A stretch of 64,000 bases of DNA, from positions 1 to 64,000 of IMG/VR virus record IMGVR_UViG_3300028840_001395. One strand, written 5' to 3'. Source of the DNA: a virus. Numbering within the stretch: the stretch's first letter is position 1; each line of letters starts with the position of its first letter. This document shows positions 2,860 through 59,929 of this stretch, one piece after another. Both the position numbers and the translations under genes were made by a program. Below the pieces are notes generated by a model. It searched no databases and was not told where the DNA came from. It saw only the letters and a program-made list of their open reading frames with translations.

Positions 2860-2890
2860 CGAAAGCACTAGAAGCTCAGGTGCCGGTCAG

Positions 2891-34025: not shown

Positions 34026-34048
34026 CGTGCCCCCTGGTGCTTTCTTCT

Positions 34049-34073
34049 ACTACCCGAACAGGGGGCTAGATAG
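34049..34073 (-). promoter_or_regulatory. Bipartite promoter-like element upstream of dnaX
   Basis: Minus strand CTATC (34073-34069), 15 bp, GTAGT (34053-34049), about 25 bp before the ATG. One of ten related sites in this half of the window. Confidence 0.5.
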
Positions 34074-34078
34074 ACCTC

Positions 34079-34531
34079 CTAGTCGTCCCCGAACAGCTCC
34101 TGGATGTGGTTCGGCTCGGGAGCCGCTCCGCTCGTCCGCCAGTAGCCGTGGCGCTCGACTTCCTCCTTGTAGAAGGACACGTCGGGGAGCCGGACGTAGA
34201 ACTTGAGGTCGCCGTCCTTCTCGTTCTCCTCGGCCCCACAGGCGCAGAGGTGGTGGTCGAGCAGGGCGACCTTCTGCTTGTCGGTCATCTCCTGCCACTC
34301 ATCCTGGGCCAGGGTGATGACGAACTTCCAGTCGGTCTCGCCCAGGATGCCCAGGAGCGGAGGTGCCTTGGCGGTCTTGCCCGCGATCACGGCGTCCCCG
34401 ACCTGGGTGGCCTTCTCCTTGAACACCACGGCGATCTCGTCCGCTACCGACGCCAGCCGGGGGTGGAACTTGGAGATCAGATCCTTGACGGTCTTGTGGA
34501 TGTCCTCGCCTGCCTTGAACTGTGCTCCCAT
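34079..34531 (-). CDS. Phage metallopeptidase-family protein with degenerate HExxH motif
   Basis: 150 aa resembling the short 'putative phage metallopeptidase' family: LASVADEIAVVFKEKATQVG, then DWKFVITLAQDEWQEMTDKQ and KVALLDHHLCACGAEEN, ending VSFYKEEVERHGYWR. In the family the central motif is DHELCH, giving zinc-binding HExxH. Here it reads DHHLCA, so both the catalytic Glu and the second His are gone. It is probably not a peptidase. The fold may serve in protein or DNA binding. It lies between primase and dnaX, the family's usual neighbourhood of replication genes. Confidence 0.72.
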   Translation of the reverse strand: MGAQFKAGEDIHKTVKDLISKFHPRLASVADEIAVVFKEKATQVGDAVIAGKTAKAPPLLGILGETDWKFVITLAQDEWQEMTDKQKVALLDHHLCACGAEENEKDGDLKFYVRLPDVSFYKEEVERHGYWRTSGAAPEPNHIQELFGDD

Positions 34532-34541
34532 AACTCGCCTC

Positions 34542-35255
34542 CTACAGCAAGAAAGAAGACCGGAGGGCTGTCTCGCCCCCTCGGTCCCAAATCTCTCCGG
34601 GGTCTGAACCCCCCGAGTAAGTCACTTCACGACACTCTAACCCTACCCTCTTGAGCGAGGCCAGTGCCCCCCATCGGCGTTTTCCAGTCGAATCAGTGTA
34701 TCCGTGGACACCTTTCCGGCCCGCCTCGTCTCGGTCATAGACCATGTGTACCCACCCCTTGCAGAAGCGCCGGAGGAACTCGACGTGCCACCAGGACAGC
34801 TTCGCCCGAACCGAGGCCAATACGGCATCCCCTTCGGGCACAACCCACTGCATCGGGCTCAAGTCGAACAACCCCTCGGTGACCCACACGTCACCACCGG
34901 CCCAGATGAGGGGCATGGCCGTCCGAAGCCCCAGCCAGAAGGGGTTCCAGGCAGCCTCATCCAGCCTGTAGTCGGTGATCTTCTTGATCCCCGTGTGTCG
35001 GCCCTCGAAACCAATGACGCGGCCTCTGGGCGAGTACACGGGGCAGATGAGCCAGCCGTCCAGGGCATCCCCGTAGTCCCCGTATCGCTTCCGAAAGGTC
35101 TTGTCGGGGACGGGATTCGAGGTTGGCGTCCAGATGGTGATACCTTCGGACTCGATGAACTCGGGCCGGACACCCCGACCCAGGAGGTAGCCCTCGCCTT
35201 CTTCGGTCAGCTCGCATCCTGCGAGAGCGTCATCCAGCCAACTCACTGGCACCAT
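34542..35255 (-). CDS. DnaG-type primase core (Toprim) without the zinc-binding domain
   Basis: 237 aa. The N-terminal part (YLLGRGVRPEFIESEGITIW) and GWLICPVYSPRGRVIGFEGR-H match the DnaG RNA-polymerase subdomain, in which a basic GFxxR patch binds template. The Toprim domain shows GDVWVTEGLFDLSPM (catalytic Glu) and WVHMVYDRDEAGRKG (DxD-type Asp pair). DnaG is about 580 aa with a zinc finger and a helicase-binding domain; both are absent here. They may be supplied by the Cys-rich proteins encoded just upstream (35826 and 36259), which is speculation. The start overlaps the upstream gene by 26 bp. Confidence 0.82.
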   Translation of the reverse strand: MVPVSWLDDALAGCELTEEGEGYLLGRGVRPEFIESEGITIWTPTSNPVPDKTFRKRYGDYGDALDGWLICPVYSPRGRVIGFEGRHTGIKKITDYRLDEAAWNPFWLGLRTAMPLIWAGGDVWVTEGLFDLSPMQWVVPEGDAVLASVRAKLSWWHVEFLRRFCKGWVHMVYDRDEAGRKGVHGYTDSTGKRRWGALASLKRVGLECREVTYSGGSDPGEIWDRGGETALRSSFLL

Positions 35256-35835
35256 TCCAGGCCACGGCGATGCTCCGACTCGGGTTGTGAGCGACGGCAG
35301 CGACCTTCTTGGGGGTGATGTGGTTCAGAAGACCCACGAAGTCCCTGTCCTTGGGGACTACCACGGCACAGTCGTCGGGGATCCACGAGGACGGACGGAC
35401 AGGGAAGCCCAGGGTGTCCGGCTGGAGCCAGTCAGGCCGTTGATACGGGCCAAGCTCGTTATCTTCCTCCCGCACTCGGGGGGCCAGGATTTCCAGATCG
35501 CCCAGGTCGTAGTCTTCGAGGTGCATCGTCGCGGCGATCACGCCGCCCTTGGAAAAGGGCTGGACGTTCCCCCACTCGTCACGTAGGCCCCGGTGGACGA
35601 CCGAGAGAGTCATGGCCCAGAACAGGTCTCCGGGGGTCGTGATCTCCCGGATTGCGGCTTTCACGATGTCGCCAGGGTGGGGCTCCTCAATCCACATGAG
35701 CCCTTCCGATGAGGTGACCAGGTAGGGGACAGTCTCCGGCGATACGTGGAACTCCATGATAAGGGGGACGTTCCCCTTCTTGGCTGCCGCCTTGGAGTGA
35801 ACTCGGACGACTTGCAGAAGATTGCTCACTGCCAC
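35230..35835 (-). CDS. Hypothetical protein in the replication operon
   Basis: 201 aa, beta-rich (VPLIMEFHVSPETVPYLVTS, GGVIAATMHLEDYDLGDLEI, SWIPDDCAVVVPKDRDFVG), with no zinc or nucleotide-binding motif. It overlaps the primase gene downstream by 26 bp and the Cys-rich gene upstream by 10 bp, so it is translationally coupled to replication genes. No family recognised. Confidence 0.65.
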   Translation of the reverse strand: MAVSNLLQVVRVHSKAAAKKGNVPLIMEFHVSPETVPYLVTSSEGLMWIEEPHPGDIVKAAIREITTPGDLFWAMTLSVVHRGLRDEWGNVQPFSKGGVIAATMHLEDYDLGDLEILAPRVREEDNELGPYQRPDWLQPDTLGFPVRPSSWIPDDCAVVVPKDRDFVGLLNHITPKKVAAVAHNPSRSIAVAWNGASELAG

Positions 35836-36266
35836 AGCTCCTCATCAGGAATCTGATCGATGGCGTTGTCCACCTCGTTGCAGTCCTCGGTCACATCCGG
35901 GCTGTCGAGCACCCAGAGCAATGCCGCTATGTCAGGATACTCCGAAGCCACTGGCCCTCGGGCCTTCGAGTTGACAAGATCGTAGAAGGCCCCCTTGATA
36001 CGGGCCTTCTCTTGTCGGGCCTCCCAGAGAGGGCATTCACGGGCATTCTCCGGACACCCCTCTACCCGCATGTCGCAGATGGGACGCCCCTTGACATCAG
36101 GATGGTTGCAGAATCCGACCTGTCGGCTCGGGTCACCCCCCACGGGCACCATCTTGTTGAACTTGCAGGTGTGGGGCTGCTTGCGGAAGTTGTCCTTCAG
36201 GAGCTTCTTCAGGTGCCGGTAGCAGACCTGCTTGAACTTCTGCCGGATGGTGGACTCATCACGCAC
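35826..36266 (-). CDS. Cys-rich hypothetical protein, possible metal-binding DNA-replication accessory
   Basis: 146 aa from GTG 36266. The N-terminus is basic (FKQVCYRHLKKLLKDNFRKQ). Seven cysteines follow in a patterned region: HTCKFN, VGFCNHPD, PICDMRVEGCPENARECPLW. This could bind zinc or an iron-sulphur cluster. The C-terminus is acidic. Such Cys-rich small proteins next to primase cores might replace the missing primase zinc domain; this is a guess. Confidence 0.6.
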   Translation of the reverse strand: MRDESTIRQKFKQVCYRHLKKLLKDNFRKQPHTCKFNKMVPVGGDPSRQVGFCNHPDVKGRPICDMRVEGCPENARECPLWEARQEKARIKGAFYDLVNSKARGPVASEYPDIAALLWVLDSPDVTEDCNEVDNAIDQIPDEELWQ

Positions 36267-36870
36267 GCATCAACTCCTGCCAACTCCACTTACTCCCCAG
36301 AGCGTCCTGGATGTCAACCGGAAGCTGCTCCCAGCCGATGACCTTGTTGTCGTAGAGATAGACATGGGAAGGCACCTTCAGCAGTCGCTTGACGAACTTG
36401 ATACCCTTCTCGGTCGGCTTCCACAGCCCCGAATCCTTCTTGTCCTGGGATCGGGTCGCGGGAGCCGTGATGGCGAGCCCCCATTTGGTGATGTAGGAAT
36501 AGTCCCGCCCCTCACCCTCCGAACGGATGTCGGTGTACTTCACCCAGTCCTGGGTCTCCCCGAAGCGACGAACTAGCCGGATGAGGAAGCGAGCCATGTT
36601 GGCGTTGAGCTTCCGGCGATAGACCTTGATGTTCTGGCCACAGCACGGACACTCACCCCCATCACCTTCCAGGCACATCGTCACCTGACGAACGGCATCC
36701 TCGTGGGTCAGATCCGACCGAGGGGCGGGGAGGACACCATCCAGGTCACTGTGCGGGTACTCGCTCCGGGGAAAGAGCGCCCCTTCATCCTCATCTTCGT
36801 CGTCGTTGAGGCCCAGAAGGTCATCGATGTCCAGGGGCTCTCGGCCTGCGAAGGGGTCTCTGGTGCTCAT
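36259..36870 (-). CDS. Zinc-ribbon plus winged-helix-like DNA-binding protein
   Basis: 203 aa. After an acidic tail (LLGLNDDEDEDEGALFPRSE) come a CPCCGQNIKVYRRK zinc knuckle, a helical part (MARFLIRLVRRFGETQDWVK) and a winged-helix-like end (ITKWGLAITAPATRSQDKKD, GLWKPTEKGIKFVKRLLKVP). This resembles a widespread phage protein of unknown function that I recall as a probable DNA-binding wHTH. The start ATG 36870 overlaps the upstream stop as ATGA; the longer frame to 36990 is not coding-like. Confidence 0.65.
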   Translation of the reverse strand: MSTRDPFAGREPLDIDDLLGLNDDEDEDEGALFPRSEYPHSDLDGVLPAPRSDLTHEDAVRQVTMCLEGDGGECPCCGQNIKVYRRKLNANMARFLIRLVRRFGETQDWVKYTDIRSEGEGRDYSYITKWGLAITAPATRSQDKKDSGLWKPTEKGIKFVKRLLKVPSHVYLYDNKVIGWEQLPVDIQDALGSKWSWQELMRA

Positions 36871-37502
36871 CGGACAGCCTCGAACCGAGCGGCACCGTTC
36901 TTCTTGACGATGCGGTATGCCTGGTCGGCAGCCTCGACCAGCGCCGGGTTGTGGGTCACCAGCAGGATGTCCAGCCCCAGCCGCTCGCACAGGACGGACA
37001 TGAAACGGCCCATGTTGGCGACGTAGTTGCCGTCGAAAGCCGGAAGAGACTCATCCAGCAGCAGGACAGGTCGGAGTCCACGACGGAGGATGATGATGAC
37101 CCGGAGCAGGATGGACTGAACAGTCGCCACAGCCCCGCCAAAGGCGTCGTTGCTCATGCCTTCGACTTCGGCCCCGCCGGGATGTGTCTGTGAGGTCACC
37201 AGATCCACCGTGACCTTGCCCCGCTGGACATCCACGTTGGCCTTGACCCGAAGATCCTGGTCATCGAACACGGTCTGTAGCCCCTCGGTCTGGAGCTTCT
37301 CGACTGCCTCAACCCCGACCGTGACCTCCTGGTCGATGAGTTGCCGGAGCAGCCCGGCCACGAGGTCGAGCAGTGCCTCTTCGTTCTCCAGGGTGCGGAT
37401 GTCACTCTCGACGGTATTCAGCCGCGAGGCGACTCCATCTCGGAGACCGATGGCCCGGTCGAGCTTCGACCGCAGCTCGGTCGCTGTAGGGAGGGAAGGC
37501 AT
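36867..37502 (-). CDS. C-terminal half of a split Rad50/SbcC-type ATPase
   Basis: 211 aa from ATG 37502. A coiled-coil N-terminus (LRSKLDRAIGLRDGVASRLN, ENEEALLDLVAGLLRQLIDQ) leads into the ABC signature (SNDAFGGAVATVQSILLRVI), Walker B (RPVLLLDESLPAFDG) with a D-loop, and the H-loop (LLVTHNPALVEAADQAY). No Walker A exists here. The complementary N-terminal half, with Walker A and ending at a CPVCG zinc hook, is encoded at 46876-47964 beside SbcD. The two could assemble one complete ATPase. An alternative is an independent, unusual SMC-like fragment. It lies next to the clamp gene (4-bp gap). Confidence 0.78.
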   Translation of the reverse strand: MPSLPTATELRSKLDRAIGLRDGVASRLNTVESDIRTLENEEALLDLVAGLLRQLIDQEVTVGVEAVEKLQTEGLQTVFDDQDLRVKANVDVQRGKVTVDLVTSQTHPGGAEVEGMSNDAFGGAVATVQSILLRVIIILRRGLRPVLLLDESLPAFDGNYVANMGRFMSVLCERLGLDILLVTHNPALVEAADQAYRIVKKNGAARFEAVR

Positions 37503-37506
37503 CCCG

Positions 37507-38673
37507 TCACCGGAGCCACGCCGCAACGGTCAGGTACTCGTCGCCGCCCTTGCCTTCCTCGTCCGCGAACAGGACATCCACGAACCGCAGGTAGCCACCC
37601 TTCTTGCGACGGCTGACGCCGAACTTGATGGTGTCCGACTTCACGAAGTCGAGGATCTTGGTCAGGTTCGGGTAGGCCAGGGTGAAACCCTCATCCGGGA
37701 GAGGGTCAGCGTCGGGCTCGGAGCCCGACTCCACACAGGTCACCTTCTGCTCCGCCGTCCCACCCGTGGCGGTCTGCATCGAGAGGATGACAGGCCGCTC
37801 CGTGTCGTCCGGGTCGCCGGGTCGGGTGAAGCGGAGGCGGTCATCCTCTCGCTGGGCACCCGACTCCAGGAAGGGGATGGCGTTCCGAAGCTCCTCGGTG
37901 TCGAGCACCCACCAGTGCGGATCCTTGTCCGGAGGGCGGTTGAAGACCGGGAAGTTGGCATCGAACCGGCTCTCCTCGAACACGGCCCCGTCCGACCGGC
38001 GGAGGAACAGGCACTTGTCGTGCTCCAGCACTTCCACGTCGTCCTTGATCGTGGCCAGGAAGCTCAGGATGGCCCCCGCATCCTTGGAGTGGACGCGCAT
38101 CGAGGAGTCCTTGAGAGCCGCCACCGACACCAGGGTCGCCGTCCGCTTGTTCGTGCTGGCGAGCACCCCCTCCTTGACCTCGCAGACGCACAGCTCCGGC
38201 TGACGGCTCTCGTCCGCCGACGCGAAGTTGCGGGAGTAGTCGATGGCCCGGTGCAGCCGCTCGGCGGGCATCAGGGCGATGATCTTGGCATCCCCCAGCG
38301 CCTTGTCCCAGAACGGGAACTTGCTCGGGTCGAGCGACTGGAACTTCTGCGTGCCCTTGCCAGGGCAGACCGCCTCGACCACGGCCCCGTCGAACTCGAA
38401 GGTCAGGGCAGCGTCCGGCAGCTTGCTGAGCCACTTCTTGAGCCGCCAGCCCTCGATGGTGAAGGCGTCGAAGTCCGACTCATCCACTGTCGCTGTCACC
38501 GGGCACAGGGCCGAGATGCGGGTCGAGTAGGTCATCACCTGGATCTTCTCGCGGTCGGCGGGATCACGCCGGAACAGGAAGTGAACCGACAGATCGCTGC
38601 CCGTCCCTGCCAGGCATGAGGCCACCACGTCCAGCGCGTTCTCCAAATCCTGCTTCGCCACCTGAATCTTCAT
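37507..38673 (-). CDS. dnaN: DNA polymerase III beta sliding clamp
   Basis: 388 aa, close to the 366-aa bacterial clamp. The start MKIQVAKQDLENALDVVASC is typical. Three repeated clamp folds can be traced: FDAFTIEGWRLKKWLSKLPD, AERLHRAIDYSRNFASADES with VLASTNKRTATLVSVAALKD, and GFTLAYPNLTKILDFVKSDT. The ring tethers polymerase. An insertion near residue 270 (PHWWVLDTEELRNAIPFLES) enlarges domain 3. It is coupled by ATGA to the upstream coiled-coil gene. Clamp plus gamma/tau, delta and delta' suggests the phage also encodes a Pol III-type polymerase outside this window. Confidence 0.88.
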   Translation of the reverse strand: MKIQVAKQDLENALDVVASCLAGTGSDLSVHFLFRRDPADREKIQVMTYSTRISALCPVTATVDESDFDAFTIEGWRLKKWLSKLPDAALTFEFDGAVVEAVCPGKGTQKFQSLDPSKFPFWDKALGDAKIIALMPAERLHRAIDYSRNFASADESRQPELCVCEVKEGVLASTNKRTATLVSVAALKDSSMRVHSKDAGAILSFLATIKDDVEVLEHDKCLFLRRSDGAVFEESRFDANFPVFNRPPDKDPHWWVLDTEELRNAIPFLESGAQREDDRLRFTRPGDPDDTERPVILSMQTATGGTAEQKVTCVESGSEPDADPLPDEGFTLAYPNLTKILDFVKSDTIKFGVSRRKKGGYLRFVDVLFADEEGKGGDEYLTVAAWLR

Positions 38674-38942
38674 GCTTCCTCCAGAAACGGGCGCACCTCA
38701 CCCTCAGCGGTCTCGATGCGCTGCGTCAAATCCTTCACTTCCTGGTCGAACCTATCTTCGAGCTTCTCGATGGCCCCGTCGAGCTTCTCGGGGGCCACCT
38801 TGCGCTTCTTGCATTCGGCCTCGATGCTCTCCACGTCCTCGCGGGCAGCCGTCAGACGCCCCTTGACGTTGCTCACGCTTTCCTTGGCGTCATCCCGGCG
38901 TCCCAGCAGGGCATCGAGCATCGCACGCTTCTCATCGGCCAT
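38670..38942 (-). CDS. Small coiled-coil protein upstream of the clamp
   Basis: 90 aa, entirely heptad-like (MLDALLGRRDDAKESVSNVK, REDVESIEAECKKRKVAPEK, KLEDRFDQEVKDLTQRIETA). It has one Cys and no enzyme motif. It overlaps dnaN by ATGA. Given the split Rad50 nearby, it might be a detached coiled-coil piece of that ATPase, or an unrelated regulator. Confidence 0.6.
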   Translation of the reverse strand: MADEKRAMLDALLGRRDDAKESVSNVKGRLTAAREDVESIEAECKKRKVAPEKLDGAIEKLEDRFDQEVKDLTQRIETAEGEVRPFLEEA

Positions 38943-38964
38943 TTCAACCTCCGCAGCTAGTCCT

Positions 38965-38989
38965 ACTACCCCTTGTCTCCGGAAGTTGA
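38965..38989 (-). promoter_or_regulatory. Bipartite promoter-like element upstream of the coiled-coil/clamp operon
   Basis: Minus strand TCAAC (38989-38985), 15 bp, GTAGT (38969-38965), preceded by a six-G run. It overlaps the end of the Cas4-like gene. Confidence 0.5.
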
Positions 38990-39973
38990 CCCCCCATCGA
39001 AACTGAGAAGCTGGAATCCCTCCACACCGTCGAGCATCTCATCGGTGTTCCGGGGCTTGCGGCGATTCTTGGACTTCTGGGCCTGGCGGTCGGGGCAGAC
39101 GCTCTCGTAGTCACAGAACCGGCAGGTCTTCCAGTGGGGCTTGGCGTCGAACTTCTCCTTGTCCATCGCCTTGCGGACATCCACGGCCCGCTGGGCGAGC
39201 CCCTTGACATCCTCCTTGGAACACTCGACCCACTCGATCCCCTCCTCCTTGACCTCGTTGCCCTCGTCGTCCAGCACGGGCTTTCCATCTACATCGAGGA
39301 CCGTCGCGCCGTAGGGGTAACGGTAGTAGCAGAAGCCCAGACGGTCAGGCATCTGCTTGTAGCACAGGTAGAAACAGAGGGCGTACCAGCGCAACTGGTC
39401 GGGGTCGGTGTAGGTCATCAACCCACCCTTGCCGTCCTTGTAACGCCGGGAGTTCTTGCCGTCGATGATGGTGACCCCGGTGTCCTCGCGCTTGACGATG
39501 AGGTCAGCACGACCACCGATGGGCGTGTACTTGTTGGCGTAGGCCACCATGTCCTGCTCGGCCTTCGAGTAGGGGCCGATGAGCCGATGGGCCTTCATGG
39601 TCTTCATGTAGCCCAACACCCCGGCCTTGATGACCTCCAGCATCTCTTCCCTGGGAGGGGCCTGTCGCCAGTCGATGTAGTTCCGGGCCGCTTCGAGCTT
39701 GAAGTTCTGCTCGCACATCTCCAGCAGCCGCTCGATGAGCTGATCCTTGGACAGGAGCTTCCACAGCTCGTCGTTGTAGAACCGCTCGATGACCCACTGG
39801 ATGACGACGCCCATCAGGGCGTGATGCCAGGACTTCTGGAAGGGCTTGGGCTTCTTCCTGCCCGGCCCACCACCGACATCGATGGCTCCCCACCCCTTCG
39901 ACCAGAGGAAATTCTGCGGGCAATCTTCATACTTGGCGAGGCTTGACCAGTAGAGCGTGAATTCCCGTGCCAT
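38966..39973 (-). CDS. PD-(D/E)XK nuclease, RecB/Cas4-like with Fe-S cluster cysteines
   Basis: 335 aa. A nuclease of the Cas4/AddB-C-terminal group that degrades or trims DNA ends. The N-terminus has SSLAKYEDCPQNFLW (first Cys). The core shows GGRADLIVKREDTGVTIIDG followed by KNSRR, giving the D-(x)n-D-x-K signature. A Gln-containing helix follows (DPDQLRWYALCFYLCYKQM). The C-terminal trio CRFCDYESVC completes a likely four-Cys [4Fe-4S] site. It probably acts with RecD-like helicase or SbcCD in recombination. Confidence 0.88.
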   Translation of the reverse strand: MAREFTLYWSSLAKYEDCPQNFLWSKGWGAIDVGGGPGRKKPKPFQKSWHHALMGVVIQWVIERFYNDELWKLLSKDQLIERLLEMCEQNFKLEAARNYIDWRQAPPREEMLEVIKAGVLGYMKTMKAHRLIGPYSKAEQDMVAYANKYTPIGGRADLIVKREDTGVTIIDGKNSRRYKDGKGGLMTYTDPDQLRWYALCFYLCYKQMPDRLGFCYYRYPYGATVLDVDGKPVLDDEGNEVKEEGIEWVECSKEDVKGLAQRAVDVRKAMDKEKFDAKPHWKTCRFCDYESVCPDRQAQKSKNRRKPRNTDEMLDGVEGFQLLSFDGGSTSGDKG

Positions 39974-40026
39974 ACCACTCCTACCCTTTCTCCGAGGTAT
40001 CTTATCCTACCCCGAAGCGGGCGGAG

Positions 40027-41531: not shown

Positions 41532-41549
41532 GCGTCACCTCTTGCCTAG

Positions 41550-41574
41550 ACTACTCTCTCGAAAGGTCTGATGA
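41550..41574 (-). promoter_or_regulatory. Bipartite promoter-like element (AGAGTAGTCTAGG type) upstream of 41184-41531
   Basis: Minus strand TCATC (41574-41570), 15 bp, GTAGT (41554-41550) within AGAGTAGTCTAGG. The same 13-mer occurs upstream of the kinase-phosphatase and coaD genes. Confidence 0.6.
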
Positions 41575-41575
41575 G

Positions 41576-42127: not shown

Positions 42128-42159
42128 CTTTCTATCTCCCGTGGGTGGCTGCCAGCACA

Positions 42160-42755: not shown

Positions 42756-42776
42756 GACCTCGCCTCCGTGGAGGAT

Positions 42777-42800
42777 TCTACCACACCTATAGCCCCATGA
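42777..42800 (-). promoter_or_regulatory. Bipartite promoter-like element upstream of 42411-42755
   Basis: Minus strand TCATG (42800-42796), 14 bp, GTAGA (42781-42777). Weaker member of the ten-site set; the first half lies inside the upstream coding sequence. Confidence 0.4.
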
Positions 42801-43026
42801 CCTTGGATACGAACTTCTTCACGACCTCCACCACCTCGACAGCCGACCGATCTCCCCGGTCATAGGCATCGAAAGCCTCCCTGGAATAGGGGTCAGCCGC
42901 TCGGGCGTAGTCGAGGTAGTCCCGTTTCTTCTCCGCAGAGAGGTTCCCGCCCCAGGCTCGGACGAATGGCCCGAGATACCACTCACGGTGAGGACGGTCA
43001 CCTGGCCTGCACTCTCCCTCTGCCAT
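42787..43026 (-). CDS. Small hypothetical protein after the kinase-phosphatase gene
   Basis: 79 aa from ATG 43026, one base past the upstream stop. Contains PHREWYLGPFVRAWGGNLSA and helical YLDYARAADPYSREAFDAYD, then VVEVVKKFVSKVMGL. No known domain. Confidence 0.5.
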   Translation of the reverse strand: MAEGECRPGDRPHREWYLGPFVRAWGGNLSAEKKRDYLDYARAADPYSREAFDAYDRGDRSAVEVVEVVKKFVSKVMGL

Positions 43027-43027
43027 G

Positions 43028-43999: not shown

Positions 44000-44017
44000 G
44001 CGATACCTCCTACCTAG

Positions 44018-44042
44018 ACTACTCTCTCGGAGAGCGAGATAA
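44018..44042 (-). promoter_or_regulatory. Bipartite promoter-like element upstream of pnkp
   Basis: Minus strand CTTATC (44043-44038), 15 bp, GTAGT (44022-44018) within AGAGTAGTCTAGG. Spacing and both half-sites match the coaD site exactly. Confidence 0.65.
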
Positions 44043-44044
44043 GC

Positions 44045-45823: not shown

Positions 45824-45839
45824 GAGACCTCCGCCCTAG

Positions 45840-45864
45840 ACTACTCTGCCGAGATCGGGGATAA
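45840..45864 (-). promoter_or_regulatory. Bipartite promoter-like element upstream of coaD
   Basis: Minus strand CTTATC (45865-45860), 15 bp, GTAGT (45844-45840) within AGAGTAGTCTAGG, 20 bp before the start codon. Confidence 0.65.
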
Positions 45865-45866
45865 GC

Positions 45867-47964: not shown

Positions 47965-47987
47965 CGGTCACCCGCCTTTCAGAGCTA

Positions 47988-49887: not shown

Positions 49888-49908
49888 CGGCCCCCTCCGG
49901 GCCGAAGG

Positions 49909-50646: not shown

Positions 50647-50709
50647 GGCTCTCGCCTCCTTTTGGGACGGAACTAGGTCATCTTGGACAGGTTCCGTCAG
50701 TCTGTATCT

Positions 50710-50733
50710 ACTACACCCAGCCTCAGAAAATGA
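50710..50733 (-). promoter_or_regulatory. Bipartite promoter-like element upstream of the SSB-like gene
   Basis: Minus strand TCATT (50733-50729) after a six-G run, 14 bp, GTAGT (50714-50710). Lies right after the stop codon of the preceding gene. Confidence 0.55.
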
Positions 50734-50742
50734 ACCCCCCAA

Positions 50743-52004: not shown

Positions 52005-52040
52005 CTTTCCAGCCTCCAATCAGGCGGTAGTTCACCACTT

Positions 52041-52064
52041 ACTACCCCTCCCGATTGGAGATGA
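52041..52064 (-). promoter_or_regulatory. Bipartite promoter-like element upstream of 51579-52004
   Basis: Minus strand TCATC (52064-52060) after a six-G run, 14 bp, GTAGT (52045-52041), in the 71-bp gap after the RecD-like gene. Confidence 0.55.
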
Positions 52065-52075
52065 CCCCCCTATTT

Positions 52076-54421
52076 TTAGGCGGCATCGGGAACAATACGC
52101 TCCTTGAACAGCGTGTTTCTCTGGTCTTCCCGGTCGTTGGCGACGGCACGGGCCAGCGCAGAGTGAGTTCCGACCAGGATGACCTTCTGCTTGGCCCGAG
52201 TCACCGCCGTGTAGAGCAGGTTGCGCTGAAGCTGGTGGCTGAAGCTGTCCACGATGGGCATCACGATCACGTCGTATTCAAGCCCCTGCGCCTTGTGAAC
52301 CGTACAGGTGTAGGCCAACCTCACCAGCCGGGGCACATCCTTGAACGGAACCCGGACGAACAGCGGAGGATCACCGAAGATCTTCAGTTCAACCTCCTTG
52401 GCCTTCCGGTCAATTCGGGACACCTTGCCCACATCACCGTTGTACACGCCCAGCCGGTAGTTGTTCTTGACGACCATGATACGGTCATCCTCCCGCATCA
52501 TGTCCTGGCCGATACGGGCCTCGGCCAGCCCACTGCGCTGCGGGTTGAGCAACTCCCGAAGGGCCACGTTGAGGCTCGTCACACCCACCGTCCCCGCATG
52601 GCGAGGGGACAAGATCTGGAAATTCCTTCGCTTGTCGTAGAGCTTCTCGGCCAACTGCATGATGACCTGTTGAACCTTCTCTTCAGACCCCACCTGGACA
52701 AGCGAGAAGTCCGAGGGCGGCTGGCACTCGGGAACCTTGCCGTGGTAGATGTCGTGGGCCGCGAACACGATGTCGCTGGTGTCCTTCTGCCGGAAGATCT
52801 CGGTGAGGTTGACCACCGGGAAGTTGCCCGAGTTGATGAGATCCCGCAGCACGTTCCCCGGCCCGACCGAAGGAAGCTGGGCCGCATCCCCGACGATGAC
52901 CATCCGACACTGGGGCGAAGTGCAGGTCAACAGCCTGAAGATGAGATGCTGGTCGAGCATCGAAGCCTCATCGACCACCACGACCTGGGCCGGATGCGGG
53001 TTGTCCGGGTCATAGCCCCACAGACTATCGGCCTCGCCCCCCTTGAGGTCACGTTCCGAGTCACCCACAATGCCCGCGTAGGTGGACTCCCGCTTCTCAT
53101 CGCTCTTGCCCTTGGCCGAGAACGCCCGGTGGATGGTGTAGGCGTGGGCTCCCGTGAGCTTGGCCAGGTTCTTGGCTGCGATGCCCGTGGGGGCACAGAG
53201 AAGGAACGTGACCCCGGCCTCCTGAAGGATGTTCACCACGGCCCGCAAGCTGGTGGTCTTCCCCGTTCCAGGCAGGCCCGTCAAAACGCTGACGGGCTGC
53301 GTGAGAGCGTTCAAGACGCCCTCTTTCTGGGTGTCCGACAGCTTGAGGTGCTGGGCTTCACCCCACTCCTGAATGGCTGTCTCGACCACCTTGTCGAGCC
53401 GGGGACGCTTGAGCTTGGACTTCTTCTCGGTCTTGGGGCCAACCGACCCGAGCTGGCTGATATAGGGCTTCTTGTCGAGACCCCCACGCCGGAACCCCGC
53501 CGCCTTCTGCCGGTCGAGAAGAAGAGAAGCCGCCTCCTGCTCCATCTTCCAGTAGGAAGGCTCATAGATGGCGAGGGTGCCCTGCTTGGTGTCCCGGTCG
53601 AGGATGATATCCTCCGTCTTGTGCAACTCGGTCAGAGCCGTGGCGACATCCTTCTTGTCCACATCCGGAATGAGTGACTGAATCTCACCGAACATCTGTC
53701 CAGTAGTCATGTAGAGATGTCCGAAGTTCCGCTGGTTCTTGCACGAGTAGAGGACAGCCCCACGGATACGGTCGGGCACGTTCACGTCCAGCCCGAGCTT
53801 CATCGCCACCGCGTCGGCCTGGTGAAAGGAGATCCCGTCCACCCGTACCAGCGCCCACGGGTTGCTGCTCAAGACGTGTTCGGCATCATCCCCGAACACC
53901 GTCCAGACCTCGCGGACCTTTCCGGTCGGGAGGCCCAGGTCGTTGAGGAAGTCCAGGGTCTTGAAGTACGCCTGGACGGTCTCCCACCGCTGGACGATGT
54001 ACATGGCGGTGAAGGAGTTGACTCCGGGCACTTCTTCGAGCTTCGCCTTGTCGGCCAACACCTTGAGGAACTCGTCATCCCCGAAGTGACCCCGGATCTG
54101 AAGCAAGACCCGTGAGCCGACCCCGTGAGAGACCAGCACCTTCTCGGCGTTGTCAGGATCCCACCCTCCCTTGAACACCGGAGCCTTGGTGATGGCAAGC
54201 TGCTTGCCATACTTGGAGTGGTTCTTCCACTCGGCCTCGAACCCGAACCAGGTGCCGACCTTGATGACCAGACCCTGAACATGCCCCCGCACGGTAACCT
54301 GCTGCTTCTGGAACACCAAGGCTTCCGCCTCGTCCGAGTCGAGAAGCACCTTCAAGATGTAGAAGCCCTGTGCAGGCTCCTCAAAAAGGACAGCATTCAC
54401 TCGTCCAGAGAAGTACATCAA
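52076..54421 (-). CDS. recD2: RecD2-like 5'-3' DNA helicase
   Basis: 781 aa, SF1B family. The N-terminal ~330 residues match the RecD2/YrrC helical-hairpin and OB-like region (SGRVNAVLFEEPAQGFYILK, GVGSRVLLQIRGHF with helix-hairpin-helix repeats). Helicase motifs: SVLTGLPGTGKTTSLRAVVN (Walker A), CAPTGIAAKNLAKLTG, QVVVVDEASMLDQHLIFRLL (motif II), VIVGDAAQLPSVGPGNVLRD (III), FRQKDTSDIVFAA (IV) and TCTVHKAQGLEYDVIVMPIV with LLYTAVTRAKQKVILVG (V, VI). It unwinds DNA in repair or recombination. It is coupled to the next gene by ATGA. Confidence 0.92.
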   Translation of the reverse strand: MMYFSGRVNAVLFEEPAQGFYILKVLLDSDEAEALVFQKQQVTVRGHVQGLVIKVGTWFGFEAEWKNHSKYGKQLAITKAPVFKGGWDPDNAEKVLVSHGVGSRVLLQIRGHFGDDEFLKVLADKAKLEEVPGVNSFTAMYIVQRWETVQAYFKTLDFLNDLGLPTGKVREVWTVFGDDAEHVLSSNPWALVRVDGISFHQADAVAMKLGLDVNVPDRIRGAVLYSCKNQRNFGHLYMTTGQMFGEIQSLIPDVDKKDVATALTELHKTEDIILDRDTKQGTLAIYEPSYWKMEQEAASLLLDRQKAAGFRRGGLDKKPYISQLGSVGPKTEKKSKLKRPRLDKVVETAIQEWGEAQHLKLSDTQKEGVLNALTQPVSVLTGLPGTGKTTSLRAVVNILQEAGVTFLLCAPTGIAAKNLAKLTGAHAYTIHRAFSAKGKSDEKRESTYAGIVGDSERDLKGGEADSLWGYDPDNPHPAQVVVVDEASMLDQHLIFRLLTCTSPQCRMVIVGDAAQLPSVGPGNVLRDLINSGNFPVVNLTEIFRQKDTSDIVFAAHDIYHGKVPECQPPSDFSLVQVGSEEKVQQVIMQLAEKLYDKRRNFQILSPRHAGTVGVTSLNVALRELLNPQRSGLAEARIGQDMMREDDRIMVVKNNYRLGVYNGDVGKVSRIDRKAKEVELKIFGDPPLFVRVPFKDVPRLVRLAYTCTVHKAQGLEYDVIVMPIVDSFSHQLQRNLLYTAVTRAKQKVILVGTHSALARAVANDREDQRNTLFKERIVPDAA

Positions 54422-54930
54422 TCGCCCTTCATATCCCGCAGAAAGTCCCGCAATCCTGTGATCATCTCTCTCATCTGCGAGGCCCGGCCCCCCAGGGTTT
54501 CCAAGTCGTCGGTGTTGAGCATCCCCCGCAAAGCATCTCGGTCGAACTTCGTCACGGCAGCCAGTCGAGACCGATGCCCCAACAGCATCGCCAGGTCAAC
54601 ATTCTGACCCTCAACCTCCCATCCCTGATCCGTCTGCTTGAGGGTTCCCTCGGCAGAGAAGTTGAACAGGAACGCCTGATCTTCGTGATGACCCGCCGGA
54701 CACTTCCCGGCGGACTCCCACATGCAACAACCACCGCCCCAGCGAGTCTCATCAACGGGTTCGGTGGGATGATGGTGGATGGCCAGAATGACCTGCTCAT
54801 CGAGGAATGGGGCCAGAGCTTCCCGAACGGACACAGGCGTCGGATGCTGATCGGTCTGGACTAGGATCTCCGTATCACCCTCATGGGTGTAGAAGATACC
54901 CTCCAGCAACAGTGTCCGAAGCTCGCCCAT
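54418..54930 (-). CDS. Hypothetical protein coupled to recD2
   Basis: 170 aa. N-terminus EGIFYTHEGDTEILVQTDQH, then ILAIHHHPTEPVDETRWGGG and a Cys pair region (GCCMWESAGKCPAGHHED), then a helical end (DALRGMLNTDDLETLGGRAS). His/Cys-rich phrases suggest metal binding. No family recognised. Confidence 0.6.
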   Translation of the reverse strand: MGELRTLLLEGIFYTHEGDTEILVQTDQHPTPVSVREALAPFLDEQVILAIHHHPTEPVDETRWGGGCCMWESAGKCPAGHHEDQAFLFNFSAEGTLKQTDQGWEVEGQNVDLAMLLGHRSRLAAVTKFDRDALRGMLNTDDLETLGGRASQMREMITGLRDFLRDMKGD

Positions 54931-54947
54931 GCACTCCTCCGCCTACT

Positions 54948-54971
54948 TCTACACCCCTACGCGAAGAATGA
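54948..54971 (-). promoter_or_regulatory. Bipartite promoter-like element upstream of the recD2 operon
   Basis: Minus strand TCATT (54971-54967) after a six-G run, 14 bp, GTAGA (54952-54948). Confidence 0.5.
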
Positions 54972-55011
54972 ACCCCCCTATAGTGGTTCAGACGGAGGAT
55001 TACCACTACAT

Positions 55012-57855
55012 CTAGGGGCGGCGAAGCTCGCACTTGTCCCCGGAGCAGAACTTGTCATCGACCTCGTGCTGGGAGCCGGTCATGTCGATGGGGGAGATGC
55101 GGGCAGCCATCTCCTTGTACTCGTCCTCGGAGATAGCCTGGTAGGGCGGGTGCTTGTATCCGTGGTCAGCATCTTCCAGGGGAAGCATCGAGACACCCTT
55201 GAGCCGATCCTCGAAGGATTCCAGGCACGACTGGATGTCCCGGACTTCCTCCTTGTTGAAGGTCACGGTCACGCTGACGGCATTGTTCGCCCAGTGGCGC
55301 TGCATGTCGGCGGCGTTGACGAACTGCTCCCAGATGGTCGCCTCGCACTTGCCCTTGACGAAGTGTTTCTCCGCCACCGGGAAGGCCACGACCGAGGTGT
55401 CATCCGCGTAGTCGTCCGGCTCGACCGTGTACCCGGCCTTCCGGGCAGCCTCGACCAGCGGGCTCGTGTTCGCCACCCGGATGTGCCGGACGTAGAACGG
55501 CGCGTGCGGGTAGTGGATGCCCGGCGTCGCCCCGCAGAGAAGAGACGTGGTGCCGGACGGCTTGACCGTGGTGGTCTTGATGGACAGCGGGACACCCAGC
55601 CAGTCCGAGTAGATGCGGTCGAGCCGGTGGATGTAGTCGTATCCCTTGTCACACCACTGGAGGAAGCCCCGACGCCCGAGCTTCACCATCGCCTGAATGA
55701 TACCGGACATCGAGCAACCGATTCTGCGGTTCCGGGTCATCACCGCGTTGGCCCGAGGAACGTGCGTCGGGACCAGCGTCACCGTCTTGGCGTAGAGGTA
55801 GGCCATCTTCAGGGTGCGCTCGTAGTCGTCGTAGTCGTCATGGTGGGCAGGGAAGGTCTCGACCAGGTTGCACAGTTCGTGGGACTCCAGAAGCTGCTCA
55901 CCGCAGGGGTTGGACCCCATCACGCGCCAGTCCTTGTTGTCCGGCACCCCATCCATCCGCGAGAAGGCCCGAGCGTTCTCCAGCCAAAGGACTCCAGGCT
56001 CGCCGTTGTCCGCGATGCGGGCGGCGACGGTGCTGTAGTCCATGCCCTGGTAGGCATAGACGCTGTTGTTGCTGGCCCAGCGGCGGTCTTCCAGAGCCTT
56101 CTGGTCGCTCTTGAGGTTGATGAACTCATCATCATCGGGCTCACCGAACATGATCTCCGCCGTCCGGCGAATACCTCCGGCGACCACGCCCTTCCCGATG
56201 TAGTTGAAGATGTCCACGATGATGGCCGAGGTGATGCGGTAGGGCTCGCCCGACCCGCTGAACTTCACCTTGGTCACGTCGATCTTTCCGGTGTCCTGAT
56301 GATAGGGCACATTGAACTTGACCTTGACGCCCTTCGGGAGCAACAGGCGGGTGAGGTTCTCCACCATGTCCTGCAAGGGCTTGGGGCCAGAGGCCGTCCC
56401 GCCGAAGGTCTTGAGCGGAACACCACGGCCACGGATCTGCGTGTAGTCGATGTTCAGCGGGTAGTGACCCTTGCCGACGAAGGTGTTGAGGATGACCCTG
56501 ATCAACTCGACCCAACCCTCACGGCTGTCCTCGACCACGTAGGGTTCCTCGGTCGTCCGGGGCATCTGGAGCTTGACCTTGCCAGCCCCCTTGGTGTCCG
56601 CCCCGGTGCCGACGCCGAGCATCGACATATCCATGAGGAAGCAGAAGGGGTCAGCGAAGTCCTCGGAGATGCCCTCGCTCGACACGAAAGCGCAGTTCTG
56701 AAGAGAGGCAGCGCCCCGCTCGTACACCACGTCCGTGCCCATCATCCAGAGGCCACGGCCAGGCGGGAGGAATTTGAAGGCCCACATGCGCTCGAACATG
56801 TCCTGGGCGGACTTCTGCGCTTTCTGCTCGTTCCAGGGCAATCCCATCTGACGGCAGTGGATCTTCTGGATGTTGTAGCATCCCTCCACGACCCGGCGAC
56901 AGGTCTCCCAGAACTCCTCCGTGCGGTCTTCACCCTCGACCTGCCGGGCGTAGGTGTTGTGGCTGGCAAACCCACCCGTAAAATGAGTCTGGATATCTGT
57001 GCTAAGAACAGCGATTTCCTTCTTTCCAGCGGGAAATACACGAACCACCCTAACAATATCATCAGGATCACAGCGGAATGCCCCACCACCCTTCGCTTGG
57101 AGATTCCTTTTGAACACCTCCAACAGACGCTGTGGCTGGAAGATCCCAAGTAGGCGGAACAAGGTTCGTCTTCGATGGGTTCTAAGGTTGTAGACCTGCT
57201 GACGACCCTCTACTTTCTTTCTCATCCCCTTGGTGTAAGGGATGCCCCACTCATCCAACAGGGATTCAACCTTCCGCAACATGGGATTGTCCACCTGAAT
57301 GAACTGAACGCTGTTCATTCGGTCGAAACACCCTTCCCCATCATACGCTGCTGAAAGGTATCCCCCAGAGAAGCTGGTATCAGTGTCCCATACTGGCCCG
57401 AAAGGACGAAGGAGATGAACAGCCCCTCCCTTATGAGTCCCCCCTAACTCTTGTGTCTCCTTCCAATAAAGGCGATTGTCAGTTTCGGACAATTTCACGA
57501 GCCAGGGGTGATCAGGGGTCGCATAAAGGACAGTCCCGTCCTCCAACTCCACCCCAAGAACTTCAGCATCTTCCGTCTCGTTGTGCATCACGATGCCGTG
57601 TCTCAGATGTCTGAGAGCCCGACCTTTGCGCTCAGGGTCAAATCCAATGATGCCCTGACCCACCTGAAGCTCTCCCGCAGGCCTCCATACAAGGTCATCA
57701 CAAAGGACGGGTGTGTCCACCGTGACACACCTCTTGTAGGTGAAGTAGCCCACCGGCCCCCACTCGGGCTGCTTGTCCTTGTACTGATCGAGGAAGTCGG
57801 TGGAGAGGGAGAATACGCGAACCTTGCGGTCTGCCGCAACCTGCTCAAAAATCAT
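55012..57855 (-). CDS. nrdJ: Adenosylcobalamin-dependent ribonucleotide reductase (class II) with in-frame intein
   Basis: 947-aa precursor; after splicing about 689 aa. It reduces ribonucleotides to dNTPs, needing vitamin B12 but no oxygen. Extein motifs: LQNCAFVSSEGISEDF (Cys388, redox pair), SNPCGEQLLESHELCNLVE (Cys651 thiyl radical site, Glu653, Cys662 redox partner), KTTTVKPSGTTSLLCGATPG and a C-terminal CSGDKC pair for re-reduction. The intein spans residues 43-300 and is annotated separately. The N-extein is only 42 residues, ending GYFTYKR and joining TYARQVEG, the normal NrdJ junction. No cobalamin-synthesis gene is seen, so host B12 or a precursor would be used. Confidence 0.95.
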   Translation of the reverse strand: MIFEQVAADRKVRVFSLSTDFLDQYKDKQPEWGPVGYFTYKRCVTVDTPVLCDDLVWRPAGELQVGQGIIGFDPERKGRALRHLRHGIVMHNETEDAEVLGVELEDGTVLYATPDHPWLVKLSETDNRLYWKETQELGGTHKGGAVHLLRPFGPVWDTDTSFSGGYLSAAYDGEGCFDRMNSVQFIQVDNPMLRKVESLLDEWGIPYTKGMRKKVEGRQQVYNLRTHRRRTLFRLLGIFQPQRLLEVFKRNLQAKGGGAFRCDPDDIVRVVRVFPAGKKEIAVLSTDIQTHFTGGFASHNTYARQVEGEDRTEEFWETCRRVVEGCYNIQKIHCRQMGLPWNEQKAQKSAQDMFERMWAFKFLPPGRGLWMMGTDVVYERGAASLQNCAFVSSEGISEDFADPFCFLMDMSMLGVGTGADTKGAGKVKLQMPRTTEEPYVVEDSREGWVELIRVILNTFVGKGHYPLNIDYTQIRGRGVPLKTFGGTASGPKPLQDMVENLTRLLLPKGVKVKFNVPYHQDTGKIDVTKVKFSGSGEPYRITSAIIVDIFNYIGKGVVAGGIRRTAEIMFGEPDDDEFINLKSDQKALEDRRWASNNSVYAYQGMDYSTVAARIADNGEPGVLWLENARAFSRMDGVPDNKDWRVMGSNPCGEQLLESHELCNLVETFPAHHDDYDDYERTLKMAYLYAKTVTLVPTHVPRANAVMTRNRRIGCSMSGIIQAMVKLGRRGFLQWCDKGYDYIHRLDRIYSDWLGVPLSIKTTTVKPSGTTSLLCGATPGIHYPHAPFYVRHIRVANTSPLVEAARKAGYTVEPDDYADDTSVVAFPVAEKHFVKGKCEATIWEQFVNAADMQRHWANNAVSVTVTFNKEEVRDIQSCLESFEDRLKGVSMLPLEDADHGYKHPPYQAISEDEYKEMAARISPIDMTGSQHEVDDKFCSGDKCELRRP
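56956..57729 (-). mobile_element. Intein with LAGLIDADG-type endonuclease remnant or mini-endonuclease in nrdJ
   Basis: 258 aa from Cys43 to Asn300 of the precursor. Splicing block A is CVTVDTPVLCDDLVWRPAGE. Block B is VLYATPDHPWLV (T-x-x-H). A LAGLIDADG-like motif GGYLSAAYDGEGCF is present once. Block G is FTGGFASHN followed by Thr as the +1 residue. The Cys1, block B His, terminal His-Asn and Thr+1 are all intact, so splicing should work. Only one dodecapeptide was seen, so homing activity is doubtful. The DNA looks less G+C-rich than the exteins, consistent with later arrival. Confidence 0.9.
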
Positions 57856-57978
57856 GTACTACTCGCTCCCGTTGAAAGAACACCCTGGTTCCCATCTGCG
57901 AAGATTTGGATTCCCCGTCCCCGCAGATGTACGTCCATAGAACAGATCCTATCAATGGACTATCGAACCAGGATCACC

Positions 57979-58965
57979 CTACCCGCAGATCGCAAGAAGG
58001 CGCGCGGTCAAACCTGTCCACGGTGCAACATGACCCGACAACACCGCCCGCTGAGATTCTCCAATGACCTTCAACAATCTGACGACTTCTTCTCTCTTCC
58101 AACCCCGCACCTGGGGCAACAATTTGTTCTTGTAAAACCAAGGGTTCTCTCGAAGCATGTCGGCTGCTTCGTCTGGACTCCTATCCCGGACTTCGATGGC
58201 CCCCAGCCAGCGCACCGCTGTCCGCCCCAGCCAGCCGCACACGGCCATTGTCGGGTCGCCCTTGTGCGTGTTCTTCACCCTGGTCAATGCCCTCGATACA
58301 CCCACAGCTTTCTTGGTTGAGAGTGCCTCGGTGATCGGGGACAGCGAAGCCTCCATCATGGGAGCCATCATGGGCTTGATCTGCGCCCCGGTCAGCTCAT
58401 CCACCCCATCGAGGTCGGCCAGCAAGCACATCTTCATCAGCTCGAACGAGAGCACCCCGAAGTCTGACCCACACCTGGTCACGAGGGCTCGGGCCAGACG
58501 CTCGGAGAGCTTCTTCTTGTATCGCTTGACCTCCGTGACACAGAACTCCACCGCCTGGGCTTCGGCTTCCCAGGGCTTACTCGCCGGGGCGGCGGGGTAG
58601 TTCCGATGGAGATTGGCCGGGAGCTTCTTGAGCCACTTGCCGAACTTGGTGTTGCCCTTGGGGTCATCCGCGTAGTCGAGCAAGAGGACGATGCCCTCAT
58701 CGCCGTCATCAAGATGCTCCTGAAGCAAGGTCAAGTCGGCCTTCTCGGGCTTGCTGACCACGACTAGAATCTGGGTCTCATCATCGAACAGCAATCCAGC
58801 CTGGGACAGCGCCGCCCGTAGGTCGGACTTACTCGACCCATCCACGTAGTCGATTCTCCAGCCCGCCTTCTTCTGAACCTTGATGGCCTCGGCCACAGCC
58901 CGTCGCTGCAGGAGTCCTTGCGACCCAGAGATAGCGGTGATGGTGACGGGCTTCTTCTCGGCCAT
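57979..58965 (-). CDS. holA: DNA polymerase III delta-subunit-like (clamp loader)
   Basis: 328 aa, the HolA length. N-terminus ITAISGSQGLLQRRAVAEAI and GWRIDYVDGSSKSDLRAALS resemble delta's NTP-binding-like fold without a working P-loop. LFDDETQILVVVSKPEKADL and DEGIVLLLDYADDPKGNTKF follow the delta pattern. A helical lid/collar (SFELMKMCLLADLDGVDELT) follows, then PWFYKNKLLPQVRGWKREEV at the end. It would open the beta ring. Start and stop overlap neighbours by TGATG. Confidence 0.8.
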   Translation of the reverse strand: MAEKKPVTITAISGSQGLLQRRAVAEAIKVQKKAGWRIDYVDGSSKSDLRAALSQAGLLFDDETQILVVVSKPEKADLTLLQEHLDDGDEGIVLLLDYADDPKGNTKFGKWLKKLPANLHRNYPAAPASKPWEAEAQAVEFCVTEVKRYKKKLSERLARALVTRCGSDFGVLSFELMKMCLLADLDGVDELTGAQIKPMMAPMMEASLSPITEALSTKKAVGVSRALTRVKNTHKGDPTMAVCGWLGRTAVRWLGAIEVRDRSPDEAADMLRENPWFYKNKLLPQVRGWKREEVVRLLKVIGESQRAVLSGHVAPWTGLTARLLAICG

Positions 58966-59270
58966 CAGACGACCGACCGCAGCCCTTCCTTGAGCGCACG
59001 GACTCGGGCCGAAGGAGGCCGCTCGGGCACCGGGATACTCCAGTAGGAGTCGGGATACACGGGCCGGAGGATGGACTCCATGAAAGGAATCTCACTGAAT
59101 CCAGCAAAGGCCACCGATACCGGGATCTCATGGTGGGTGTCGTCGTCCAGATCCCAGAACCCGAACAGGGCCTCCTTGGGTGAGTCCGACCACCCAAGTT
59201 CGTGTCCGTTCTCCCGACGCAGCTCGAACTCGTCTATCCAGGCTCGCAGGCTGTCATACTTGATGCTCAT
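58965..59270 (-). CDS. Small hypothetical protein between clamp-loader genes
   Basis: 101 aa from ATG 59270 (TGATG with the delta'-like stop). Contains KYDSLRAWIDEFELRRENGH, EALFGFWDLDDDTHHEIPVS and YPDSYWSIPVPERPP. No family recognised. Coupled at both ends to clamp-loader genes. Confidence 0.6.
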   Translation of the reverse strand: MSIKYDSLRAWIDEFELRRENGHELGWSDSPKEALFGFWDLDDDTHHEIPVSVAFAGFSEIPFMESILRPVYPDSYWSIPVPERPPSARVRALKEGLRSVV

Positions 59271-59884
59271 CAGGTTCCCTCCACCAGAGCGGCAGCAATC
59301 TCTATCTGCGTCGGGTTCCGCCACCGAGTCACGGGACGAAGGCGCTCCCACAAGGCCAACTTTGCCGGATCATCGAGGTCAGCACTCAAGACGCCCGCGA
59401 TGGCGTTGAGCAACTCGACCTCCTTGCCCTTGACCCGGAAGAGAGCGGAACCGACTCGGTAGGTCTCGTTGAGGGTCACGGCCTCGACTAGCTCCCAGGC
59501 TGCCGTGACGACATCCTCATCTTCCTCGACATCTTCCAGGGTCGGAGCCCAGCGTTCCAGACAGCGAGAACGGATGGTCGGGGATACTCCGCCGAGATCG
59601 TTGGCCCACAGGATAGGGGTCACCACCTCGGGGTTGAACTCCTCGATGCGCTTGAGCAGCACGTCGCTGGCCTTGGGCCAAGCCAGATCCATCGGCCCGA
59701 CCACGAGGACACCGGCTTCCATGCCCACGGGAGGGGAGAGAAGAGAGGCTACGACCTCGCGGGCTTCGGCGGCTTTGAGCCCGTCGTCACCGAAGGGGGG
59801 AGCCACCAGACGCCCCAACGTAGGGGCTTCTGCGAGGGCAGCTTCTCTTGCTCCGGGGCCGTGGAACAGAATGCAGGATGCCAC
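59270..59884 (-). CDS. holB: DNA polymerase III delta'-like protein, reduced
   Basis: 204 aa from GTG 59884. N-terminus ASCILFHGPGAREAALAEAP is a P-loop-like start lacking the GKT. Typical delta' phrases follow: DVLLKRIEEFNPEVVTPILW, then ANDLGGVSPTIRSRCLERWA, the conserved 'SRC' arginine-finger motif. It is shorter than E. coli delta' (334 aa); the collar domain seems abbreviated. Neighbouring delta and distant gamma/tau make a full loader. Confidence 0.75.
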   Translation of the reverse strand: MASCILFHGPGAREAALAEAPTLGRLVAPPFGDDGLKAAEAREVVASLLSPPVGMEAGVLVVGPMDLAWPKASDVLLKRIEEFNPEVVTPILWANDLGGVSPTIRSRCLERWAPTLEDVEEDEDVVTAAWELVEAVTLNETYRVGSALFRVKGKEVELLNAIAGVLSADLDDPAKLALWERLRPVTRWRNPTQIEIAAALVEGT

Positions 59885-59904
59885 CAGGTCACCTCTCTAG
59901 ACCT

Positions 59905-59929
59905 TCTACCCCACGCGAGGGGTGAATGA
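59905..59929 (-). promoter_or_regulatory. Bipartite promoter-like element upstream of the delta'/delta operon
   Basis: Minus strand TCATT (59929-59925), 15 bp, GTAGA (59909-59905). Confidence 0.45.

Follow-up and report, generated by a model that had tools for sequence, protein, structure and literature searches.

Two ways of transcribing large phage genomes are well known. In T4 (gp55/gp33) and SPO1 (gp28, gp33/gp34) the host RNA polymerase (RNAP) is redirected by phage factors to middle or late promoters; the jumbo phages phiKZ and AR9 encode multisubunit RNAPs of their own. For T4, PMC6024815 describes the host polymerase acting, with phage factors, on phage promoters. For jumbo phages devoid of an RNAP (group 2), two further sources (PMC7824862; PMC13282480) list both minimal sigma factors, with a single helix-turn-helix (HTH), and fuller ones, proposed to recruit the host RNAP. 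Here, a set of putative promoters is described in the genome of a huge phage, starting from a stretch of 64,000 bases (the window), which corresponds to positions 1-64000 of the 435,804-base virus record IMGVR_UViG_3300028840_001395. The main set, indicated as class A, is interpreted as phage-specific promoters, read by a phage sigma factor on the host core RNAP and driving early or middle genes, with a probability of about 0.75.

Class A has the genome-wide form GGGGYCTTAYTTCG-N~10-CAGAGTAGTCTAGG; the strong form, GGGTCTTATYTCG..CAGAGTAGTCTAGG, was first met in 5' regions outside the window. About 282 kb of the 436-kb genome were inspected as stretches, the remainder through pattern searches. 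CTTAY-N14-GAGTAGTCT is found 47 times exactly and 60 times allowing up to two mismatches, against 2 for the reversed pattern; for GAGTAGTCTNNR the corresponding numbers are 45 and 5. When the distance between CTTA and GTAG is left free, 52 sites fall at 17 nt and 0 to 4 at any other spacing. A blind screen over all tetramer pairs ranks CTTA-N18-TAGT first (49 vs 0.4), and de novo motif discovery by expectation maximization (EM) on 5' regions recovers the same class unaided, as GaGtAGtcta; unrestricted EM on the 5' regions of other genes catches codon periodicity, which is avoided by using intergenic sequence only. The information is confined to two blocks, a G-run followed by YCTTAYTTC, and AGAGTAGTCTAGG, while the spacer between them is uninformative and varies among the 48 copies read. 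A same-strand start codon lies within 150 nt of 38 of the 52 sites, though 85% of the sequence is coding; the distance to it is mostly 22-29 nt, extending up to about 200 nt. Sites occur on both strands, often in divergent (98.0, 146.4, 197.5, 230.4, 237.3, 251.1, 270.8 and 318.7 kb) or tandem (98.0 kb) pairs. Two blocks at a near-constant spacing of 16-18 bp, placed 5' of genes on the same strand in divergent and tandem copies, are the features of a sigma-type bipartite promoter.

Within the window (62% GC, called genes all on the minus strand), the initial annotation had listed ten intergenic sites sharing the pattern TCATY-N14/15-GTAGW. A motif-bearing site is indeed present on the minus strand directly 5' of all ten genes; the sites are, however, a mixture and not copies of a single motif. 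Exact matches to the pattern in the window number five (41550, 50710, 52041, 54948, 59905), where 0.25 are expected and none of 100 shuffled sequences reaches 5. All five coincide with listed sites and the other five carry variants. The pattern, which has 4 matches in the other 372 kb, fits the weaker of two classes. The spacing, given as either 14 or 15, is a single fixed one in class A (CTTA-N17-GTAG), and in class B, the weaker class, it is mostly one base shorter. Other details hold: three sites (before 41531, 43999 and 45823) share the 13-mer AGAGTAGTCTAGG with identical spacing, a run of six G precedes four (38942, 50646, 52004, 54930), and the structural half, where the initial annotation had found none but a weak look-alike near 640, contains no class A site. 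By a position weight matrix (PWM) trained outside the window, three sites score above the shuffled maximum (10.9), the other listed sites reaching at most 4.2. From these scores and the site sequences, the ten are composed of three class A sites, three to four class B sites and about three degenerate ones, with 59884, 38942, 42755 and 34025 on the degenerate side (Table 1). The copies of the strong form (CTTAY..GAGTAGTCT, 47 exact) are mostly located outside the window, beyond what the initial annotation could see.

Class B, of the form GGGGGKTCAY-N15/16-GTAGWA, is small and found 5' of replication genes (50.6, 52.0 and 54.9 kb); written as GGGGKTCAW-N15-GTAGWA, it is matched exactly three times, each time within the window and ahead of a replication-region gene. 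After removal of class A, 5' regions are still enriched in GTAGTA (9 vs 0.7) and GGGTAG (9 vs 1.0). A class B-like site, GGGTAGTATC, is also seen in the structural half (2776-2865, minus strand), where it follows a strong terminator-like hairpin and precedes gene 2775.

Table 1. Putative promoter sites of the window, candidate reader proteins, and the corresponding layout in related phages. Positions are those of the window unless otherwise indicated; PWM, score by position weight matrix.
Feature	Position	Strand	Sequence	Remarks
Class A, 5' of gene 43999 (kinase/phosphatase, PNK-like)	44016..44043	-	CTTATCTCGCTCTCCGAGAGAGTAGTCT	0 mismatches; PWM 39.0
Class A, 5' of gene 45823 (cytidylyltransferase-like)	45838..45865	-	CTTATCCCCGATCTCGGCAGAGTAGTCT	0 mismatches; PWM 34.8
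Class A, 5' of gene 41531	41548..41575	-	CTCATCAGACCTTTCGAGAGAGTAGTCT	one mismatch (CTCAT); PWM 24.5
Class B, 5' of gene 50646	50709..50738	-	GGGGTTCATTTTCTGAGGCTGGGTGTAGTA	
Class B, 5' of gene 52004, just behind helicase gene	52040..52069	-	GGGGGTCATCTCCAATCGGGAGGGGTAGTA	same-place counterparts in L021, L022/L027
Class B, 5' of gene 54930 (helicase operon)	54947..54976	-	GGGGTTCATTCTTCGCGTAGGGGTGTAGAA	
Probable class B, 5' of gene 59884	59904..59929	-	TCATTCACCCCTCGCGTGGGGTAGAA	without G-run
Degenerate, class B-like, 5' of gene 38942	38964..38995	-	GGGGGGTCAAC..GGGTAGTA	recovered by de novo motif search
Degenerate, 5' of gene 42755	42776..42802	-	GGTCATG..GTAGAA	weak -35 half; in de novo motif search
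Degenerate, 5' of gene 34025	34048..34072	-	TATCT..GGGTAGTA	weak -35 half; in de novo motif search
P0001	31416..32021	-		201 aa; sigma region 4 and second HTH; candidate transcription factor or partial sigma
P0002	61453..63540	-		695 aa; divergent sigma-like protein; two tandem copies, 41% identical; single copy in relatives
Third sigma-family protein	L031:18752-19789 (158.8-159.8 kb), outside window			region 2-like stretch and C-terminal HTH
Layout in G003			RCTTACTT..GCGTAGAT	34 sites; N17
Layout in G001			GGCTTAGCC..GGGTAGAG	13 sites; N17; divergent overlapping pairs
Layout in G014			GGCTTAG..GTAGAA	13 sites; N17
Layout in G005			TTGCTTAG..CTCGTAGA	6 sites; N17
Layout in G004			TTTA..GGTAGAT	8 sites; N17
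Layout in G020			GGTAAC..GTAG	15 sites; N17

No near match to the window was found among cultured phages. Uncultured huge phages make up its kin; among them are LR745208.1 (485 kb; 48.5% identity in the helicase, 52.9% in P0001) and IMG/VR records of up to 536 kb. De novo searches and spacing tests reveal the same layout in several of them, with drifted letters and N17 maintained between a -35 tetramer (CTTA, TTTA or GTAA) and GTAG; the blind pair screen is noisy in relatives at codon-phase spacings. Across relatives with a GC content of 51-64%, the GTAG core and the 17-nt spacing are kept and the -35 block drifts. G010 does not feature the class A layout: here GGGGGTTCC-N16-CGTAGAG is found (11 vs 0-2 at other spacings), and this form, GGGGTTCC..CGTAG, resembles class B. 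The gene behind the helicase is preceded by a GGGGGG(T)TC..GTAGWA site in the window phage, in L021 and in L022/L027. Different motifs were observed in two other relatives. G008 (L104, L106) has a strong two-block motif, CGTGTAAAAG..CGCTTSATRGGTG, some copies of which form divergent pairs. In LR745208.1 (L142-L144), TAAA-N14-TGCCGATAGG (TGCCGAT) lies 24-30 nt before many genes and has the appearance of a textbook sigma28-type promoter, the sigma28 (FliA) promoter being TAAA-N15-GCCGATAA.

Among the genes scanned, those preceded by class A encode a PNK-like protein (43999), two cytidylyltransferase-like proteins (45823; 116.7 kb), an ArdC antirestriction protein, Macro and PARP proteins, and a NAD-dependent DNA ligase; none belongs to a structural family. 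Takeover and metabolism functions, together with the lack of structural families, fit an early or middle set, a timing deduced from gene content. The parts of the DNA ligase (L036; 198.1 and 200.1 kb) seem to be split across two genes, one for adenylation and OB domains and one for HHH and BRCT domains, each preceded by a separate class A promoter. The PARP (L036:15813-17489), Macro-domain (L041:427-987) and ArdC (L031:5350-6294) proteins form a candidate counter-defence or NAD-signalling set. Class A also precedes the gene of a 491-aa protein (L084:820-2295, minus strand; about 275.0-276.0 kb), in which DUF2325 is accompanied by a stretch weakly resembling sigma region 2; this may be a fourth sigma-like protein. 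In the structural region of the window, a 2475-aa protein (9266-16693, minus strand) combines topoisomerase IB, poly(A)-polymerase/CCA-head, 2'-5' RNA ligase and GNAT domains, and is probably a polyvalent protein injected along with the DNA.

The gene for the RNAP beta' subunit, which marks phages with a multisubunit RNAP, is not detected by the PF00623 profile in the 436 kb, while 14 of 14 control genomes match, although divergent phage RNAPs could escape this profile. By PF00623, the phage would not belong to that group, and a phage sigma acting on the host polymerase is the likeliest reader of class A. In the proposed mechanism, class A would consist of a -35-like GGGGYCTTAYTTC and a -10-like GAGTAGTCT at one fixed spacing, to which a phage-encoded sigma would recruit the host core RNAP; transcription would then proceed into middle or early genes for host takeover and DNA/NAD metabolism. 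Class B is a further version of this layout, perhaps read by another phage sigma-like protein. The promoter reading of class A is well supported; that these are promoters rather than other regulatory sites, that a phage sigma reads them, and when, we infer from sequence data. A sigma-like promoter with altered -35 and -10 hexamers had been suggested by the initial annotation: the many copies at one constant spacing, their placement, the divergent and tandem pairs and the conservation in kin all agree with it, while the consensus then given is that of the weaker class.

Two readers had been suggested in the window. P0001 possesses a genuine sigma region 4 (PF08281, E 1.1e-12; also PF04545), related to SigF/FliA by profile comparison, and a second HTH. 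Region 2, responsible for -10 recognition and melting, is missing: Pfam gives region-4 and HTH families only, and no region-2 match was found at this locus. The protein is found in every relative tested, with 34-71% identity and a strongly conserved second HTH; as sole reader of class A it is disfavoured, because it occurs in phages without the motif. P0002, proposed as 61453-63537, has no sigma match in PHROGs, Pfam or NCBIfam, and hhalign comparisons with E. coli sigmas and with P0001 are not significant; a paralogue in G003 gives weak Sigma70_r2 matches (E 0.005 and 0.03). Its predicted fold, in contrast, retrieves sigma factors first. With the AlphaFold2 model (pLDDT 69), the first 25 PDB rows of Foldseek are all sigma chains, though the best E is only 0.12 and TM-scores are low; in BFVD, phage sigma factors rank first and second; superposition on region 4 only gives a VIA Z of 6.7, with a root-mean-square deviation of 2.6 over 77 residues. 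The 17-nt peak is present in all 7 phages in which P0002 has a strong homologue, and four phages without one lack that exact form. This co-occurrence was not retained as decisive, being weakened by relatedness (2-4 label changes on trees), incomplete records and G010; the records of G001, G004, G005, G010, G012 and G014 are probably fragmentary.

A third sigma-family protein, encoded outside the window at 158.8-159.8 kb, is no weaker a candidate than these two. It matches PF07638 by itself with E 0.025, and its homologues match PF04542 (E 9e-5, G008) and PF07638 (E 3.8e-4, G020); regions 2.2-2.4 and the C-terminal HTH can be aligned, and relatives are present at 41 IMG/VR loci. Upstream of its gene lies TTGACA-N17-TAGGAAT, a position that would suit a sigma made early. 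A co-variation of its region 2.4 (NYH, NYI, NML) with the -10 type, suggestive on six phages, gave no clear picture across 39 loci, each spanning 20 kb at most. A further 172-aa protein (L050:1375-1893, minus strand; 241.5 kb) features an RpoD-like region 4 tail only. Among possible readers of class A, the 158.8-159.8 kb sigma is tentatively placed first, closely followed by the duplicated P0002, and P0001 or a host sigma take what likelihood is left.

Several observations weigh against a phage sigma reading class A. P0001 is equally present where the CTTA-N17-GTAG peak is missing (G008, G011, G012, G013, LR745208), and the 158.8-kb sigma, too, occurs in phages without the class A motif. In G019 and G010, which still use the GTAG -10, only a weak homologue of P0002 or none is found: G010 keeps GTAG with another -35, and no P0002 homologue was detected in its fragmentary record. 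Each of the three sigma-like proteins is a candidate reader. Moreover, start positions are those predicted from the letters of the motif: with TAGTCT as -10, transcription would start on the Shine-Dalgarno sequence or immediately ahead of it, leaving 5' leaders of about 10 nt at many genes.

A host alternative sigma, or an ordinary class of host promoters carried by the phage, might read class A instead. Sigma70-like words are enriched in the 5' regions freed of class A (TATAAT, 5 vs 0.09; also TATAGT), and such TTGACA/TATAAT promoters probably serve the host sigma for some genes; the sigma28-type promoter of LR745208 points the same way. Yet strict class A gives only scattered, chance-like matches in IMG/VR and GTDB, its 8 occurrences in an 84,980-species genome collection lack the flanking G-run context, and the GTAG core with its spacing persists across relatives of different GC content while the -35 drifts. 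This explanation is accordingly considered improbable. It is still less probable that the motif is an RNA element, such as a leader hairpin or a processing or translation signal. The motif extends at its 3' end into the Shine-Dalgarno sequence and some spacers can fold into short hairpins (43999, CTCTCCGAGAG; 52004, CTCCAATCGGGAG), but a conserved hairpin between the half-sites was rejected, given the variable spacer, and tandem copies, divergent overlapping pairs (G001) and remote start codons do not fit a leader element. Equally remote is the idea that class A binds a phage activator or repressor touching both half-sites beside another core promoter: P0001 has two HTH domains and is conserved throughout the group, and the half-sites lie some two helical turns apart, but this protein is just as common without the peak, and no second promoter is consistently seen beside class A sites, as judged without a formal test.

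With class A taken as promoters for a phage sigma, a broader scheme may be envisaged, although it is rather doubtful: the 695-aa chain would be a fused double sigma of two modules, next to two other sigma-like proteins, with classes A and B read by different modules or sigmas, and with letters drifting along with the sigma over a fixed 17-bp geometry, to generate orthogonal promoter-sigma pairs. In a 436-kb genome whose genes are mostly unknown, class A marks those probably switched on together. It comes with candidate sigma factors that can be tested, and the drift of the layout between relatives provides a natural comparison of promoter and sigma changing together.

Among the papers searched, none was found to describe these promoters. 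The kind of system, a phage sigma redirecting the host polymerase, is known; the promoter set and its family-wide drift appear to be new, and the unusual features are a sigma-like chain made of two copies and a family of promoters whose letters drift. The sigma28-type promoter of LR745208 occupies the same position relative to genes, suggesting an analogous role, with -35 and -10 blocks different from those of classes A and B. As in phiKZ and AR9, promoters found only in the phage are present in a jumbo genome; unlike in those phages, no beta' homologue was found, by PF00623 only. T4 and SPO1 share with the window phage the many copies of phage-specific promoter elements, for which they redirect the host polymerase through phage sigma-like proteins; their sequence elements are different, whereas here a drifting layout, with candidate readers, can be traced across uncultured phages of 400-540 kb. 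Reviews on jumbo phages, in their available portions, propose such promoters without showing them; the sites described would be those apparently used by huge phages devoid of an RNAP. For the RNAP-less jumbo phages of PMC7824862 and PMC13282480, as far as the available text of these sources goes, the role of sigma factors is proposed without promoters; in the window phage the putative promoters are described, and one of the sigma-like proteins is a tandem double copy.

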